Shown here piece by piece: positions 31,154 to 39,812 of a DNA stretch of 64,000 nucleotides (position 1 is its first letter; each line of letters starts with the position of its first letter). Source of the stretch: Brevundimonas sp. MYb52 (lineage in GTDB: Bacteria > Pseudomonadota > Alphaproteobacteria > Caulobacterales > Caulobacteraceae). A program made the position numbers and the translations under genes. The stretch covers positions 1-64,000 of the forward strand of contig NZ_PCPB01000005.1 in NCBI RefSeq assembly GCF_002979535.1, read 5' to 3'. Below the pieces are notes generated by a model. It searched no databases. It saw only the letters and a program-made list of their open reading frames with translations, and was not told the DNA's origin.

Positions 31154-32260
<1,107 letters not shown>

Positions 32261-32291: not shown

Positions 32292-32678
32292 ATGAGCTAC
32301 GATCTTCTGGTGTTCGAGCCCGCCGCCGCTCCGGTCGAGCGTGACGCGTTTCAGGCCTGGTATGACGCCTTCATGCGTTGGGACGGTGCGTGGAATTACA
32401 ATGATCCCGCCGTCTGTTCGCCCGCTCTACAACGCTGGGAAGCGGGGATGCGGCGGCGATTCTGGGCGTTGAACGGCCCACATGCCTCGCGAACAGGGCC
32501 GTGGCTCAGGCCGTCCGATTCCGCAGACATCACCTGTGCGCCCAGCGCCATCTACGCGGGGTTTGCCTGGAGCCGCGCTGATGTGGCGCAGGAGTTGGCG
32601 CTCACCCTCGCCAAGCGGCATGGCGTGGGGTTCTATGATGTCAGTGGCGACGGCTCTGTCTGGCGACCAGATGTCTGA
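32292..32678 (+). CDS. Conserved hypothetical protein between frmA copies
   Basis: A 128-residue soluble protein, rich in Trp and Tyr (FQAWYDAFMRWDGAWNYNDPAV; ALNGPHASRTGPW; IYAGFAWSRADVA; HGVGFYDVSGDGSVW). It resembles a widespread family of small uncharacterised proteins that start MSYDLLVFEP and end GVGFYDVS. I cannot assign a function. The direct repeats around it suggest it was inserted into the frmA-GFA junction. Confidence 0.75.
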   Translation: MSYDLLVFEPAAAPVERDAFQAWYDAFMRWDGAWNYNDPAVCSPALQRWEAGMRRRFWALNGPHASRTGPWLRPSDSADITCAPSAIYAGFAWSRADVAQELALTLAKRHGVGFYDVSGDGSVWRPDV

Positions 32679-32700: not shown

Positions 32701-32729
32701 AGCATCCGTTCGGTGATCGTCTTTTAACA
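32701..32729 (+). repeat. Direct repeat, right copy (frmA 3'-end remnant)
   Basis: Copies the final frmA codons (SIRSVIVF and stop) with one substitution, directly before the GFA-family gene. No frmA-like sequence precedes it, so it is an orphan 3' end. Confidence 0.85.
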
Positions 32730-32744: not shown

Positions 32745-33209
32745 ATGAGTGACTGGAAGCTGCCGTGGACCGGCGCCTGCCTGTGCGGGCAGGTGCGCGT
32801 TCGAGTCACCGAGGCGCCGGTTGTCGCCGCCGCCTGTCACTGTCGCGCCTGTCAGAAGCTGACGGGCGGGGCCTATTCGCTCAGCCTGATGCTGCCGGCC
32901 TCGGGGCTGTCGGTCGAGGGCGAGACCGAGATCGGCGGCCTGCATAATCCTGTGCCCGAGCATCACTTCTGTTCCTCGTGCAAGACCTGGCTGTTCACGC
33001 GCGGCATCGCCGGTGGGGCCTTCGTCAACCTGCGGCCCAGCCTGCTGGATGACGGGGGCTGGGTCGTCCCCTATGCGGACACCTGGGCGACGGAACGCCT
33101 GCCGGGCGTCCAGTCCGGCGCAGTGGTGCACTATCCCGAGTTCCCGCCGGTCGAGGACTATGCCGGACTGATGGAAGGCTATGCGCGTGACGGGGCCAGG
33201 CCGGGGTGA
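32745..33209 (+). CDS. GFA-family protein (glutathione-dependent formaldehyde-activating enzyme-like)
   Basis: A 154-residue zinc protein of the GFA/CENP-V fold. Ligand motifs: CLCGQVRV, CHCRACQKLTGGAYSLSL and FCSSCKTWLF. GFA was proposed to speed addition of glutathione to formaldehyde, the substrate step for FrmA, though that activity is debated for the family. Its position between frmA and fghA supports a role in the same pathway. AAGGAAGGG precedes the ATG. Confidence 0.88.
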   Translation: MSDWKLPWTGACLCGQVRVRVTEAPVVAAACHCRACQKLTGGAYSLSLMLPASGLSVEGETEIGGLHNPVPEHHFCSSCKTWLFTRGIAGGAFVNLRPSLLDDGGWVVPYADTWATERLPGVQSGAVVHYPEFPPVEDYAGLMEGYARDGARPG

Positions 33210-33229
33210 TTGCGTCTGCAGGAGAGACC

Positions 33230-33319
33230 ATGATCACGCGCGCGCTGCCTCTGGGGCGCATTCACGAGGGCTTGGAGCTGATGTGTGAGGGCAAGAGCCG
33301 CTCGGTGTTCGTTTTCTAG
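33230..33319 (+). pseudogene. Second frmA 3'-end remnant (possible 29-residue peptide)
   Basis: Reads MITRALPLGRIHEGLELMCE then GKSRSVFVF and stop, aligning along its whole length with the FrmA C-terminus ([30 protein letters not shown]) with one codon deleted. The DNA is clearly homologous to 32170-32260 but more diverged than the remnant at 32701. GGAGA lies 6 bases before the ATG and the stop codon directly abuts the ATG of the next gene, so it could be translated as a leader peptide. Confidence 0.75.
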
Positions 33320-33820
33320 ATGGCTCTTTCCCGATACCTTGCTTGCGTTGCGCTGGCGGCAGTCTCAGCGTGCAGCGCACCATGGGAAGCGGATGCGCCG
33401 CGCCTTGGCGCGGAGGTATCGGGTGACGGCTTCACTTTGAAGATGCCGGAGGGTGCGACATTTCTGAAGCGAGCGGTTGGTGGAGAGAAGATCGAGTACC
33501 GGGTAGTCGATCCTAAAATCGGCACGCTTGTCGATGTTATGGTTTGGCCTTCGGGAGAGATGCTACCCTTGGAAGAGGGGGAAACCATCAGCTCAGTACG
33601 CGATAATCCTCGTGTTGTTTCTCGCATCGAGGCCGATGGCGAGCGGCATGTGGTCGGCTATATCTGGAAACGAAAATGCACAGCCGATATCGAGATCGGA
33701 TCATGGGCTGGGATTGATTTCGTTTCCTCCACGCCGGACCCTCGGGAGCATGATGCGAGGCGAGCACTTGCCGATGCCGTCGCGGCCTCATTGAGACCGA
33801 CTTCCTGCAAGGCGGAGTGA
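33320..33820 (+). CDS. Putative lipoprotein, lower-GC gene
   Basis: A 166-residue exported lipoprotein. The signal peptide MALSRYLACVALAAVSAC has its lipobox Cys at residue 18. The rest is a soluble domain of unknown family (TLKMPEGATFLKRAVGGEKI…HVVGYIWKRKC), with two later Cys. The G+C content is visibly lower than its neighbours from about 33460 to 33860, which suggests acquisition. The ATG directly follows the stop of the frmA remnant, so translation may depend on it. Confidence 0.65.
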   Translation: MALSRYLACVALAAVSACSAPWEADAPRLGAEVSGDGFTLKMPEGATFLKRAVGGEKIEYRVVDPKIGTLVDVMVWPSGEMLPLEEGETISSVRDNPRVVSRIEADGERHVVGYIWKRKCTADIEIGSWAGIDFVSSTPDPREHDARRALADAVAASLRPTSCKAE

Positions 33821-33924
33821 TCTGTCTTCATAGGAATGCTATTGGGTTCGTTGCCAAAAGAAACTTTATCAACCTAGATGGAAACGAGCCGCCGGTTGCC
33901 GGAGCGGCGTCAGGGAGAAAATAC

Positions 33925-34311
33925 ATGTTCACTCACGTCACGCTCGGGGCCAACGATGTCGAGGCGTCGCGCAAGTTTTATGACGCGGTGCTCGGGGCCC
34001 TGGGCCACGAAGCGGGAACCTTCACGGATCAGCCTCGCCCCGGCGTCTGGTACAGGACGTCGCGCGGGATGCTGGGCGTGGTCACCCCGCGCGACGGCGA
34101 GGCGGCCTGTCACGCCAACGGCGGCACCATCGGTTTTGCGGCGGCCAGCCCTGAGGCCGTGCTCGCCTTCGCCGAGGCCGGCGTGGCGGCGGGCGGCACG
34201 GCGATTGAAGATCCCGCGGGTCCGCGCGAAACCCCCTTCGGCGCCATGCATCTGGCCTATCTGCGCGACCCGTCGGGCAACAAGATCTGCGCCGTTCACC
34301 GGCCGGGCTGA
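33925..34311 (+). CDS. VOC-family (glyoxalase/bleomycin-resistance-like) protein
   Basis: A 128-residue vicinal-oxygen-chelate protein: MFTHVTLGANDVEASRKFYDAVLGALGH, a central GTIGFAAASPEAVLAFAEAG and a C-terminal YLRDPSGNKICAVH. GGGAG sits 8 bases before the ATG at 33925. The open frame upstream reads through low-GC DNA and lacks homology. Related small VOC genes are frequent near formaldehyde/methylglyoxal genes, but the substrate is unknown. Confidence 0.85.
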   Translation: MFTHVTLGANDVEASRKFYDAVLGALGHEAGTFTDQPRPGVWYRTSRGMLGVVTPRDGEAACHANGGTIGFAAASPEAVLAFAEAGVAAGGTAIEDPAGPRETPFGAMHLAYLRDPSGNKICAVHRPG

Positions 34312-34886: not shown

Positions 34887-35735
34887 ATGGAAACCACCAA
34901 GAGCCATGTCGTTCACGGCGGGACCCTGCGCTATCTGAAGCACGACAGCGCCACGACCGGCACGCCCATGACCCTGTCGGTCTTCGTCCCCGCAGGCGAA
35001 GGGCCTTTCCCGGTCCTGATCTGGCTGTCGGGCCTGACCTGCACCGAGGACAATTTCACCACCAAGGCCGGGGCCTACAAGGCCGCCGCCGAACAGGGCG
35101 TCATCATCGTCGCGCCGGACACCAGCCCGCGCGGGGAAGGGGTCGCCGATGATCCGGCCTATGACCTGGGACAGGGCGCGGGCTTCTACGTCGACGCGAC
35201 GCAAGCGCCGTGGGCGCCGCACTTCCGCCTGGAAACCTATGTCACCGACGAACTGATCGCCCTGATCGACGCCGAGTTCCCCACGACGAAAACGCGCTCC
35301 ATCTTCGGTCACTCGATGGGCGGGCACGGGGCGCTGACCCTGGCCCTGCGCCATCCCGAAATGTTCACCTCCGTCTCGGCCTTTGCGCCGATCTCGTCGC
35401 CGACGCGCTGCGCCTGGGGCGAGAAGGCGTTTGGCGCCTATCTGGGCGAGGATCGCGCCGAATGGGCCAAACACGACGCGGCCCTGCTGATCGAAGGCGG
35501 CGCGGCCCAAGACGCAGATGGAAAGGGCCGTTTCGACGACATCCTGGTGGATCAGGGCGACGCCGACCCCTTCCTGACCGACCAGCTCAAACCCGAACTG
35601 TTGGTCGCGGCGGCCAAGGCTGTGGGACAGCGGCTTACCCTGCGGATGCAGCCGGGCTATGATCACTCCTACTTCTTCATGGCCAGCTTCGTGGATGACC
35701 ACGTCGCCTTCCATGCGACCCGCCTGAAAGCCTGA
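34887..35735 (+). CDS. fghA: S-formylglutathione hydrolase
   Basis: A 282-residue esterase-D-family serine hydrolase that releases formate and glutathione from the FrmA product. Catalytic Ser lies in FGHSMGGHGAL, His in GYDHSYFF, and an Asp in LVDQGDADPFL. The oxyanion and substrate region WLSGLTCTEDNFTTKAG is typical. The ATG at 34887 has GGAG 9 bases upstream. The TTG one codon earlier is less likely. It completes the frmA-fghA pathway. Confidence 0.96.
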   Translation: METTKSHVVHGGTLRYLKHDSATTGTPMTLSVFVPAGEGPFPVLIWLSGLTCTEDNFTTKAGAYKAAAEQGVIIVAPDTSPRGEGVADDPAYDLGQGAGFYVDATQAPWAPHFRLETYVTDELIALIDAEFPTTKTRSIFGHSMGGHGALTLALRHPEMFTSVSAFAPISSPTRCAWGEKAFGAYLGEDRAEWAKHDAALLIEGGAAQDADGKGRFDDILVDQGDADPFLTDQLKPELLVAAAKAVGQRLTLRMQPGYDHSYFFMASFVDDHVAFHATRLKA

Positions 35736-36100: not shown

Positions 36101-37930
36101 ATGATGGACCGTCGCCGCCTGTTGATGACCGCTGCCCTGGGAGGCGCGTTCGCGACCTCGGGCGCCGCCCGTGCTCTGGCGCAAGCCGCCGCGCCTGCCG
36201 CTGGCCCGACCTCGGCCCAGTTCCTGGCCCTGCTGGACAAGATCGCGCAGGAGATGATCCTGTCCGATCCCGAGACCCTGACGGCATTGGGCATGGACCG
36301 CGGGCCGATGGCTGGCGCCCGCTTCAAGCTGAGCGACCGTTCACAGGCCAAGATCGATGCCGACAAGGCTCAGTTCAAGGCGTCGATGTCGGACCTGAAG
36401 GCCATCGACAAGAGCCAGCTGACCGCGACGGAGCAGACCTATTACGACTCGCTGGAATTCTTCGGCGACACCCTGATGAAGGGCGACGGCTTCCCCTATG
36501 GCGGCGGCATGTATCCGTCGCCCTATACGGTCAGCCAACTGGGCGGCGCCTATCAGCAGATCCCCGACTTCCTCGACAGCCAGCACCGCATCGAGAGCGC
36601 CGAGGACGCCGACGCCTATCTGTCGCGCCTGTCGGACTTCGCCAAGGGCTTGGACCACGAGCGGGCGCGGATGCAGGCGGACTTCGCCGCCGGCGCCGTG
36701 CCGCCCGACTTCGTCATCGATCGCACCCTGACCCAGATGGGCGCCATCACCGGCACGGCGGTGGCCGACTCGGTCATGAGCCAGTCGCTGGCCCGCCGCA
36801 CCGCCGAGAAGAACATCCCCGGCGACTGGGCCGCGCGCGCTCAGGCCATTCTGACGGCGGAGGTCTATCCGGCCATCCAGCGTCAGGCGGATGCGTTGAA
36901 GGCCGTGCGCCCCGGCGCGACCCACGACGGCGGCGTCTGGCGTCTGCCGCAGGGCGAGGACTACTACCGCTTCGGTCTGCAGTACTACACCACCTCCTCG
37001 ATGACGCCGGACGAGGTGCATCAGATGGGGCTGGAGCAGGTGGCCGAGATTTCGGCCCGCGCCGACGCCGTGTTGAAGGCGCAAGGCTTGACCCAGGGCA
37101 CGGTCGGCGAGCGCATCGCCGCCCTCGGCAAGGACCCGCGCTTCGTCTATCCCAACACGGACGAAGCCAAGGAAGAGCTGCTGAAGGCCCTGAACGAGCA
37201 GATGGTCGCCGTTCAGGCCCGTATGCCGGAATACTTCGGCCGTCTGCCCAAGTCGCCGTGCGACATCCGCCGCGTGCCCAAGGCCATCGAGGCCGGGGCG
37301 CCGGGCGGCTATTATCAGTCGCCGGCCCTGGATGGATCGCGTCCGGGCGCATACTACATCAACCTGCGCGACACGGCGGAATGGCCCAAGTGGACCCTGC
37401 CGACCCTGACCTATCACGAGGCGGTGCCGGGCCATCACTTCCAGATCGCCCTGCAGCAGGAGCAGCCGGACACCCCGCTGCTGATGAAGGTCATGGGCTT
37501 CTCGGCCTATTCAGAAGGCTGGGGCCTCTATTCGGAACAGCTGGCCGACGAAATCGGTCTCTATGAGAACGACCCCTTCGGTCAGGTCGGCTATCTGCAG
37601 TCGCTGATGTTCCGCGCCGCGCGTCTGGTGGTCGACTCTGGTCTGCACCACAAGCGCTGGAGCCGCGAGCAGGGCATCCGCTACATGGTCGACACCCTGG
37701 GCGACCAGGAATCGAGCATCGCCACCGAGGTCGAGCGCTACTGCGTCTGGCCGGGCCAGGCCTCCAGCTACAAGGTCGGCCACACCACCTGGGTCAGGCT
37801 GCGCGAAGACGCCAAGAAGCGTCTGGGCGACCGCTTCGACATCAAGGGCTTCCATGACACCGGCCTGAACCTGGGCGGTGTGCCGCTGACGGTGCTGGAG
37901 CGGACCATGAACGCCTGGACGCCCGCCTGA
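36101..37930 (+). CDS. DUF885 zinc-peptidase-like protein, paralogue 1
   Basis: A 609-residue exported protein. The N-terminus has a twin-arginine motif (DRRRLLMTAALGGAFA), so Tat export is likely. The C-terminal half is the DUF885 domain with the metal-site motif TLTYHEAVPGHHFQ and SAYSEGWGLYSEQLADEIG, and ends near CVWPGQASSYKVGHT. DUF885 proteins resemble M3/M32-type metallopeptidases. The substrate is probably periplasmic peptides (inference). GGGAGG precedes the ATG. A paralogue follows directly. Confidence 0.9.
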   Translation: MMDRRRLLMTAALGGAFATSGAARALAQAAAPAAGPTSAQFLALLDKIAQEMILSDPETLTALGMDRGPMAGARFKLSDRSQAKIDADKAQFKASMSDLKAIDKSQLTATEQTYYDSLEFFGDTLMKGDGFPYGGGMYPSPYTVSQLGGAYQQIPDFLDSQHRIESAEDADAYLSRLSDFAKGLDHERARMQADFAAGAVPPDFVIDRTLTQMGAITGTAVADSVMSQSLARRTAEKNIPGDWAARAQAILTAEVYPAIQRQADALKAVRPGATHDGGVWRLPQGEDYYRFGLQYYTTSSMTPDEVHQMGLEQVAEISARADAVLKAQGLTQGTVGERIAALGKDPRFVYPNTDEAKEELLKALNEQMVAVQARMPEYFGRLPKSPCDIRRVPKAIEAGAPGGYYQSPALDGSRPGAYYINLRDTAEWPKWTLPTLTYHEAVPGHHFQIALQQEQPDTPLLMKVMGFSAYSEGWGLYSEQLADEIGLYENDPFGQVGYLQSLMFRAARLVVDSGLHHKRWSREQGIRYMVDTLGDQESSIATEVERYCVWPGQASSYKVGHTTWVRLREDAKKRLGDRFDIKGFHDTGLNLGGVPLTVLERTMNAWTPA

Positions 37931-38021
37931 CCGACTGAGCTACGGGCGCGCCGGCCCGACGATTGTCTGAGTATTGAGGGGGCGCGCGGCGTCGCGCCCG
38001 CCTCTTTGGGGAGTTTGGACC

Positions 38022-39812
38022 ATGATCGACCGCCGCCGCCTGTTGCTGACCGCCGCCGCCACGGCCGCCGTCGCGCCCTCGCTGGCCCACGCCGCCGCCA
38101 ATGATGCCGACGGGCGGCTGAACGCCCTGCTGGACGGCTGGTTCGAGGCCGACATCGACGACAACCCCGAATATGCGACCAACCTTGGTCTGGATCGTGG
38201 CGCGCGCTCTAGTCTGTCATCCAAGCTGACGGCCATCAGTCCCGACGCCATCCGCGCCGACCGGGACAAGGCCATCAGCCGCTGGTCCACCCTGCGCGCT
38301 TTCGACCAGACGGGGCTCAGCGAGGCCGGCGCCCTGAACTACGCCATCGCCGCCTTCGGTCGCGAGACCTCGGCCGAGACCTCGCGCTTCGCCTACGGCT
38401 CGGGGCCGGGCCGTCCGTCGCCCTATATCGTGACCCAGCTCTCGGGCGCCTATTTCGAGACGCCGGACTTCATGGACAACCAGCACCGGGTCGAGGACGC
38501 GGCGGGGGCCGAGGCCTTCCTGTCGCGGCTGGAAGCCTTCGCCGGCGTGCTGGACGGAGAGACCGAAAAGGTGCGTGAGGACGCAGGGCAGGGCGTCATC
38601 CCGCCGGACTTCATCATTGACCGCATGCTGCCGCAGGTCCGCACCCTGCGCGACACGCCTGCCGCCGAGCTGGCCATGGTCAAGTCGCTGGTCCGCAAGA
38701 CCGCTGCGCTGAACCTGAGCGGCTATGACGCCCGCGCCGCCGCCATCGTCGATCAGAAGGTCAAGCCGGCCCTGGCTCGCCAGATCGCGGCCCTGGAGGC
38801 GATCCGCCCGCAGGCGACCCACGACGCCGGGGTCTGGCGCCTGCCCGAGGGCGAGGCCTTCTACGCCAACGGTCTGAAGTCCAACACGACCACCACCCTG
38901 AGCGCCGCCGAAATCCACAAGATGGGTCAGGAGCAGGTCGCCGAAATCAGCGCCGAGATCGACCTGATCCTGAAGTCGCAGGGCTATACGCAAGGGACGG
39001 TCGGCGAACGCATTCAGGCCCTGAACAAGGACCCAGCTCAACTCTTCCCCAACACCGACGCGGGCAAGGAAGAACTGCTGGCCTGGCTGAACCAGCAGGT
39101 CGCGGCGCTGGAGCCCAAGCTGCCGTCCGTCTTCGGTCGACTGCCCAAGACCCATGTCGAGATCCGCCGCGTGCCGGTGTCGATCCAGTCGGGCGCGCCG
39201 GGCGGCTATTATCAGGGGCCGCCGCTGGATGGCTCGCGGCCGGGCGCCTACTACATCAACCTGCGCGACAGTGGGAACTGGCCCAAGTTCGCCCTGCCGA
39301 CCCTGACCTATCACGAGGCCTCGCCGGGCCACCACCTGCAGGTCGCCCTGCAGCGCGAGTCGGGCGAACTGCCGCAGTGGCGCCGGGCGGGCGGTTTCTC
39401 GGCCTATAATGAGGGCTGGGCCCTCTATGCCGAGGCGGTCGCCGCCAACGACCTGCACGCCTATGCTGACAACCCGCTGGGCCGGGTCGGCTTCCTGATG
39501 TCCTATCTGTTCCGGGCCGTGCGTCTGGTGGTCGACACCGGCCTGCACTCGGAGCGCTGGAGCCGCGAGCGGGCGGTCGAATACATGGCGGCCTCGGGCG
39601 CCAAGCCGCTGGACGCCTCGAACAGCGAGATCAACCGTTACTGCGTCTGGCCGGGCCAGGCCTGCGCCTACAAGGTCGGCCACACCGTCATCGCCCGCCT
39701 GCGGGCCGAGGCCGAGGCCAGGCCTGGCTTCGACCTGCGCGCCTTCCACGACAAGGTGTTGGTGAACGGCTCCCTGCCGCTGGCCGTGCTGGAAGCCCAG
39801 ATGCGGGGCTGA
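38022..39812 (+). CDS. DUF885 zinc-peptidase-like protein, paralogue 2
   Basis: A 596-residue paralogue of the preceding gene, with a twin-arginine start (MIDRRRLLLTAAATAAVAPS), the motif TLTYHEASPGHHLQ and FSAYNEGWALYAEAVAAND, and the same CVWPGQACAYKVGHT near the end. Similarity runs along the whole length, indicating tandem duplication followed by divergence. The start at 38022 has GGGGAG upstream. A GGGCGCG-CGGCGT-CGCGCCC hairpin lies in the 90-base gap before it and might modulate read-through. Confidence 0.9.
   Translation: MIDRRRLLLTAAATAAVAPSLAHAAANDADGRLNALLDGWFEADIDDNPEYATNLGLDRGARSSLSSKLTAISPDAIRADRDKAISRWSTLRAFDQTGLSEAGALNYAIAAFGRETSAETSRFAYGSGPGRPSPYIVTQLSGAYFETPDFMDNQHRVEDAAGAEAFLSRLEAFAGVLDGETEKVREDAGQGVIPPDFIIDRMLPQVRTLRDTPAAELAMVKSLVRKTAALNLSGYDARAAAIVDQKVKPALARQIAALEAIRPQATHDAGVWRLPEGEAFYANGLKSNTTTTLSAAEIHKMGQEQVAEISAEIDLILKSQGYTQGTVGERIQALNKDPAQLFPNTDAGKEELLAWLNQQVAALEPKLPSVFGRLPKTHVEIRRVPVSIQSGAPGGYYQGPPLDGSRPGAYYINLRDSGNWPKFALPTLTYHEASPGHHLQVALQRESGELPQWRRAGGFSAYNEGWALYAEAVAANDLHAYADNPLGRVGFLMSYLFRAVRLVVDTGLHSERWSRERAVEYMAASGAKPLDASNSEINRYCVWPGQACAYKVGHTVIARLRAEAEARPGFDLRAFHDKVLVNGSLPLAVLEAQMRG

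Follow-up and report, generated by a model that had tools for sequence, protein, structure and literature searches.

Genes have been gained repeatedly at the conserved junction between frmA and voc in Brevundimonas, and in the present genome (G000) this turnover has left two scars of the border gene frmA, one of which may have turned into a leader that couples translation to a newly acquired gene. frmA is a formaldehyde-detoxification gene, and accessory genes have been repeatedly exchanged behind it in this genus; the scars show how such hotspot gene gains are built up and, in part, in which order they occurred. On balance, the diverged 3′ end of frmA that follows the gfa gene (copy 3) is a recombination scar that may now start the translation of the adjoining lipoprotein gene. 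It also makes it possible to test directly whether translation of a recently gained gene can be sustained by the cut-off end of another. Positions given below are those of the window, i.e., the 64,000-nt stretch analysed here, counted from its first letter. The locus contains the following features:

31154–32260, + strand: frmA, intact, encoding S-(hydroxymethyl)glutathione dehydrogenase (class III ADH; TIGR02818 above cut-off); its 3′ end is copy 1
32292–32678, + strand: gene X, a cargo gene of 128 aa, with no family match in Pfam and NCBIfam searches
32701–32728, + strand: frmA 3′ end copy 2 (27/28 nt identical to copy 1; the repeat extends as CA to 32730)
32745–33209, + strand: gfa-family gene, cargo (PF04828)
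33221–33226, + strand: Shine–Dalgarno (SD) sequence GGAGAG ahead of copy 3 (computed anti-SD pairing, −7.4 kcal/mol)
33230–33319, + strand: frmA 3′ end copy 3, diverged, an open 29-codon frame plus TAG (FrmA similarity)
33320–33820, + strand: predicted lipoprotein gene, cargo (lipobox VSAC)
33821–33924, + strand: voc leader, containing GTTGCCAAAAGAAAC and differing in type from that of its own clade (alignment scores)
33925–34311, + strand: voc, a glyoxalase-superfamily core gene (PF00903), right border of the hotspot
Between voc and frmB/fghA: a small gene
34887–35735: frmB/fghA

Full-length frmA is present in a single copy in G000, as determined by a genome search. The gfa protein is 84–90% identical to seven Brevundimonas records (B. 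bullata, B. diminuta, B. naejangsanensis, and others). Further downstream, two adjacent and similar genes (36101–37930 and 37974–39812) have a DUF885-type look in translations read by eye and appear to be a tandem duplication.

An insertion hotspot between frmA and voc

The usual gene order in congeners is frmA–voc–frmB. The comparison set consists of about 130 Brevundimonas congeners, from 114 of which the region behind frmA was taken, resulting in 115 loci including that of G000. The gene next after frmA, directly or past cargo, is voc in 111 of the 115 loci, and voc was not found in the remaining four. The frmA–voc interval is short (11–128 nt) in 69 loci and occupied (249–1664 nt) in 42 of the 111 readable sites, G000 counted. 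When linked by protein similarity, the inserts form 15 groups, with gfa and X merged solely through their co-occurrence in G000, and they represent at least 15 unrelated kinds, including a GFA-family gene (seven others), a short-chain dehydrogenase (seven), glyoxalase-superfamily genes, a DUF4350 protein, and several unknowns. With the same borders, unrelated contents, and empty sites in relatives, the frmA/voc junction is a core-gene-bordered insertion hotspot. Of the 41 other occupied sites, 32 have a first cargo gene that starts −4 to +16 nt from the frmA stop codon (−4 to +4 nt in 18 of those 32 genomes), and, to judge from this spacing, most cargo could be translated along with frmA. Because the genes behind frmA are a fast-changing set in Brevundimonas, a position next to frmA says little by itself about a role in formaldehyde metabolism.

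Each of the three cargo genes of G000 has a counterpart at this junction elsewhere. gfa lies directly behind frmA, with neither X nor the lipoprotein gene, in seven congeners. A relative of gene X (43%), the sole clear one among 131 congeners, lies directly behind frmA in G023, which has no gfa there, and distant relatives of the lipoprotein gene occupy the junction in G071 (profile E = 6e-12) and G100 (3e-8). The presence of counterparts of all three at frmA/voc in other species supports repeated insertion at one site, the first of two origins offered by an earlier note on this DNA. The second, a collapsed tandem frmA array in which each frmA had its own accessory gene, would explain three successive frmA ends, but a second frmA or extra frmA tails are present in none of the 114 other downstream regions, and single cargoes are found without any duplication; this origin is very improbable.

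Three other features of the junction are seen in congeners. In G071 and G100 (L118/L119), two successive cargo genes lie between frmA and voc, the second being the distant lipoprotein relative, with no frmA scar between them. In G094 (L172), a glyoxalase-superfamily cargo is followed by a longer ORF that groups with the DUF4350-type cargo of G080, and these too are stacked without scars. In most congeners, the frmA–voc interval contains an imperfect palindrome like GTTGCCAAAAGAAAC or GTTGCATAAAGCAAC (window 33853–33870), which looks like a voc operator.

The additional frmA ends and the order of gene gains

Copy 3 encodes MITRALPLGRIHEGLELMCEGKSRSVFVF, followed by its stop codon. This peptide aligns with FrmA residues 339–368 (20/30 identities, E = 7e-10) and is colinear with them up to the stop codon. 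A profile built from 115 FrmA C-termini gives it a score of 58, compared with a maximum of 28.3 for reversed sequences and 30.4 for the next-best match anywhere at the loci. Copy 3 is a homologue of the FrmA C-terminus, with similarity beyond chance. The earlier note had recognised that the last 30 frmA codons recur after gfa and that three frmA ends lie within about 1.1 kb; both observations hold (copies 1, 2, and 3 span 1,059 bp), and no better match of copy 3 to a non-FrmA family emerged, leaving the assignment intact. Between copies 3 and 1, 17 of 90 positions differ, and copy 3 lacks one in-frame codon. The nearest frmA ends are those of G000 and G010 (17 differences). A distant frmA donor was considered and rejected, the closest tails being those of these two genomes, and comparison with congener tails gave no clear phylogenetic signal of a foreign donor. 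Nine amino acids are replaced in copy 3, whereas 10 of 11 clade members encode one identical FrmA tail.

Profile and 28-nt scans of the 114 congener loci revealed no frmA-end scar in another genome, and no downstream copy of the 28-nt frmA end in other congeners is better than 9 mismatches in 28. These results bear on site-specific integration, in which the frmA 3′ end would be an attachment site duplicated at each insertion. Direct repeats of 28–30 nt do flank X on both sides in G000, but a second frmA end is missing from all 41 other occupied sites, so that border repeats at both insert ends are confined to G000, and an integrase is absent among the cargoes examined. Site-specific integration is hardly credible here.

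The sequence 3′ of copy 2 continues as the gfa leader, just as the sequence behind the real frmA end does in G009. Copy 2 is thus the older of these two ends and formerly stood before gfa, which implies that X arrived between copy 2 and the present frmA end. In this event, the second of two, X would have entered behind frmA and left the older end ahead of gfa. gfa is carried by eight clade members; on the frmA tree, its distribution needs four changes, with gfa found on each branch of a fork, one leading to G000, G009, G010, and G033 and one to the remaining carriers, and one gain with few losses would be the simple reading.

The lipoprotein gene, within its clade, is present in G000 only. Its description as a low-GC gene stands in a mild form: at 58.1% GC (GC3 58%) it lies below the window (67.1%) but is not strongly low. 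No close relative was found in the congeners, the order, or the genome collection, where a single-sequence query gave distant relatives only. A five-sequence profile detects a related domain in 124 of 131 congeners, mostly within larger frames elsewhere; to judge from these matches, the family is ordinary and the G000 copy is not close to its other members. The domain family has a counterpart at G000:C23:145211–145600 besides those in the 124 congeners and is conserved across the genus. In G080 (L194) at least, the related domain forms the end of a larger alanine/proline-rich protein.

The voc leader of G000 scores 72 in alignment with that of G031 and at most 58 with those of clade members, which score 103–115 with each other. 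A voc leader unlike that of the clade is modest evidence that copy 3 came in as a single piece with the lipoprotein gene and this leader. The donor would be a relative in which the lipoprotein gene stood between frmA and voc. One end of the incoming DNA would have joined in voc or its leader through ordinary homologous recombination, and the other illegitimately behind gfa, bringing in the lipoprotein gene along with the final 30 codons of the donor frmA; copy 3 would have decayed almost freely since then. Partial frmA ends together with a foreign-type voc leader form a pattern compatible with homology-facilitated illegitimate recombination, which is a candidate mechanism here. No donor with this lipoprotein gene immediately behind frmA was found in the congeners, the order, or the genome collection, and clean microhomology is not provable at the left junction. 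Many voc starts share the motif ATG-A/T-TCACGC with the internal Met of frmA, which made it a candidate crossover site; the full 12-mer occurs in the window only in frmA, and the motif was set aside as unproven. As a possible source of the SD segment of copy 3, voc leaders score at most 26, a value that control leaders also reach.

The order of events could also be reversed. The lipoprotein gene would then have been first behind frmA and later displaced by an incoming frmA–gfa segment, the old frmA end becoming copy 3, and X would have produced copy 2 likewise. One rule would cover both scars, and decay has gone further in copy 3 than in copy 2 (17/90 vs. 1/28). However, as gfa is present in eight clade members and the lipoprotein gene in G000 only, this order needs several losses of the lipoprotein gene, unless gfa reached G000 separately. 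Such a pushed-back order is rather unlikely, and the import of copy 3 with the lipoprotein gene behind a resident gfa is the preferred sequence.

Translation from copy 3 into the lipoprotein gene

The earlier note ascribed to copy 3 its own ribosome-binding site and a stop codon that abuts the lipoprotein ATG, and both are borne out. GGAGAG is well spaced from the copy 3 ATG, with a computed anti-SD pairing of −7.4 kcal/mol. The lipoprotein ATG has no SD, and its value of −3.0 is at background (median −3.2). The copy 3 TAG (33317–33319) adjoins the lipoprotein ATG (33320) in the same frame, at a stop–start distance of 0. An internal Met codon of frmA would now lie behind a good SD; ribosomes would translate 29 codons from it, halt at TAG, and restart at the adjoining SD-less ATG. 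A role of copy 3 as a ribosome feeder, coupled translationally to the lipoprotein gene, is plausible on this arrangement. Termination–reinitiation in E. coli needed no more than the final 15 nt of an upstream gene, and its efficiency dropped steeply with distance (PMC10666635). A distance of 0 is less sure to couple than −4 or −1 overlaps and is counted against coupling.

A leader peptide, as proposed in the earlier note, is a possible reading of copy 3, which has signals for coupled translation in its SD and the abutting stop and start codons. Copy 3 has 9 amino-acid changes, compared with 10.9 expected without constraint, its frame stays intact by chance in 33% of simulations, and RNA folding is no more stable than that of shuffled sequence (z = +1.5), with no attenuator-type structure standing out; together, these values make a function of the peptide itself unlikely. 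Neither a conserved frame nor purifying selection, as expected for a selected leader peptide, was found, and the copy 3 frame is absent from congeners. Promoters and terminators around copy 3 do not rise above chance.

The same values suit an inert scar of the same origin, i.e., a neutral remnant behind which translation of the lipoprotein gene is independent or all but absent. Its replacements fit the absence of constraint, a third of the simulations (33%) keep the frame, and copy 3 is common to no congener. An inert scar would nevertheless leave unexplained that the SD of copy 3 is well placed and the sole good one near the lipoprotein start, and that stop adjoins start. It is a possible alternative of some weight, and a scar that may now feed ribosomes to the lipoprotein gene is the favoured reading. 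A broader generalisation, in which the end of frmA would serve as a portable module for starting translation, is speculative and improbable: cargo genes adapted to coupling behind frmA would carry its last codons along on moving, and this severed end, behind a new SD, would become a working leader frame and maintain expression of the cargo.

Comparison with known systems

The processes involved are of known kinds, and their combination at frmA/voc is unusual. Turnover of hotspots through recombination in border genes is known (PMC5635113). The frmA/voc site resembles core-gene-bordered hotspots in its fixed core-gene borders, its many unrelated cargoes, and the absence of a recognisable mobile element, but differs in that its inserts are mostly single genes right behind frmA and that one genome retains border-gene scars.

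Homology-facilitated illegitimate recombination is a known mechanism class (PMC4437187); one homologous anchor and one illegitimate join would account for part of an frmA end lying before the cargo. The frmA/voc case differs in that neither a donor molecule nor a clean microhomology junction was found.

Attenuator leader ORFs, the translation of which is controlled through the encoded peptide, are short ORFs with an SD just upstream of a gene. Copy 3 is likewise a short SD-bearing ORF immediately 5′ of a gene, but it has no special codon run or stable alternative RNA structure, and it derives from a known gene end.

Translational coupling by termination–reinitiation is a described system (PMC6728339, PMC10666635), to which copy 3 is similar in that a stop codon adjoins the start codon of a downstream gene that has no SD, and a short upstream 3′ fragment suffices in E. 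coli. Copy 3 differs in its distance of 0, as opposed to −4 or −1, and in that its upstream frame is a truncated remnant.
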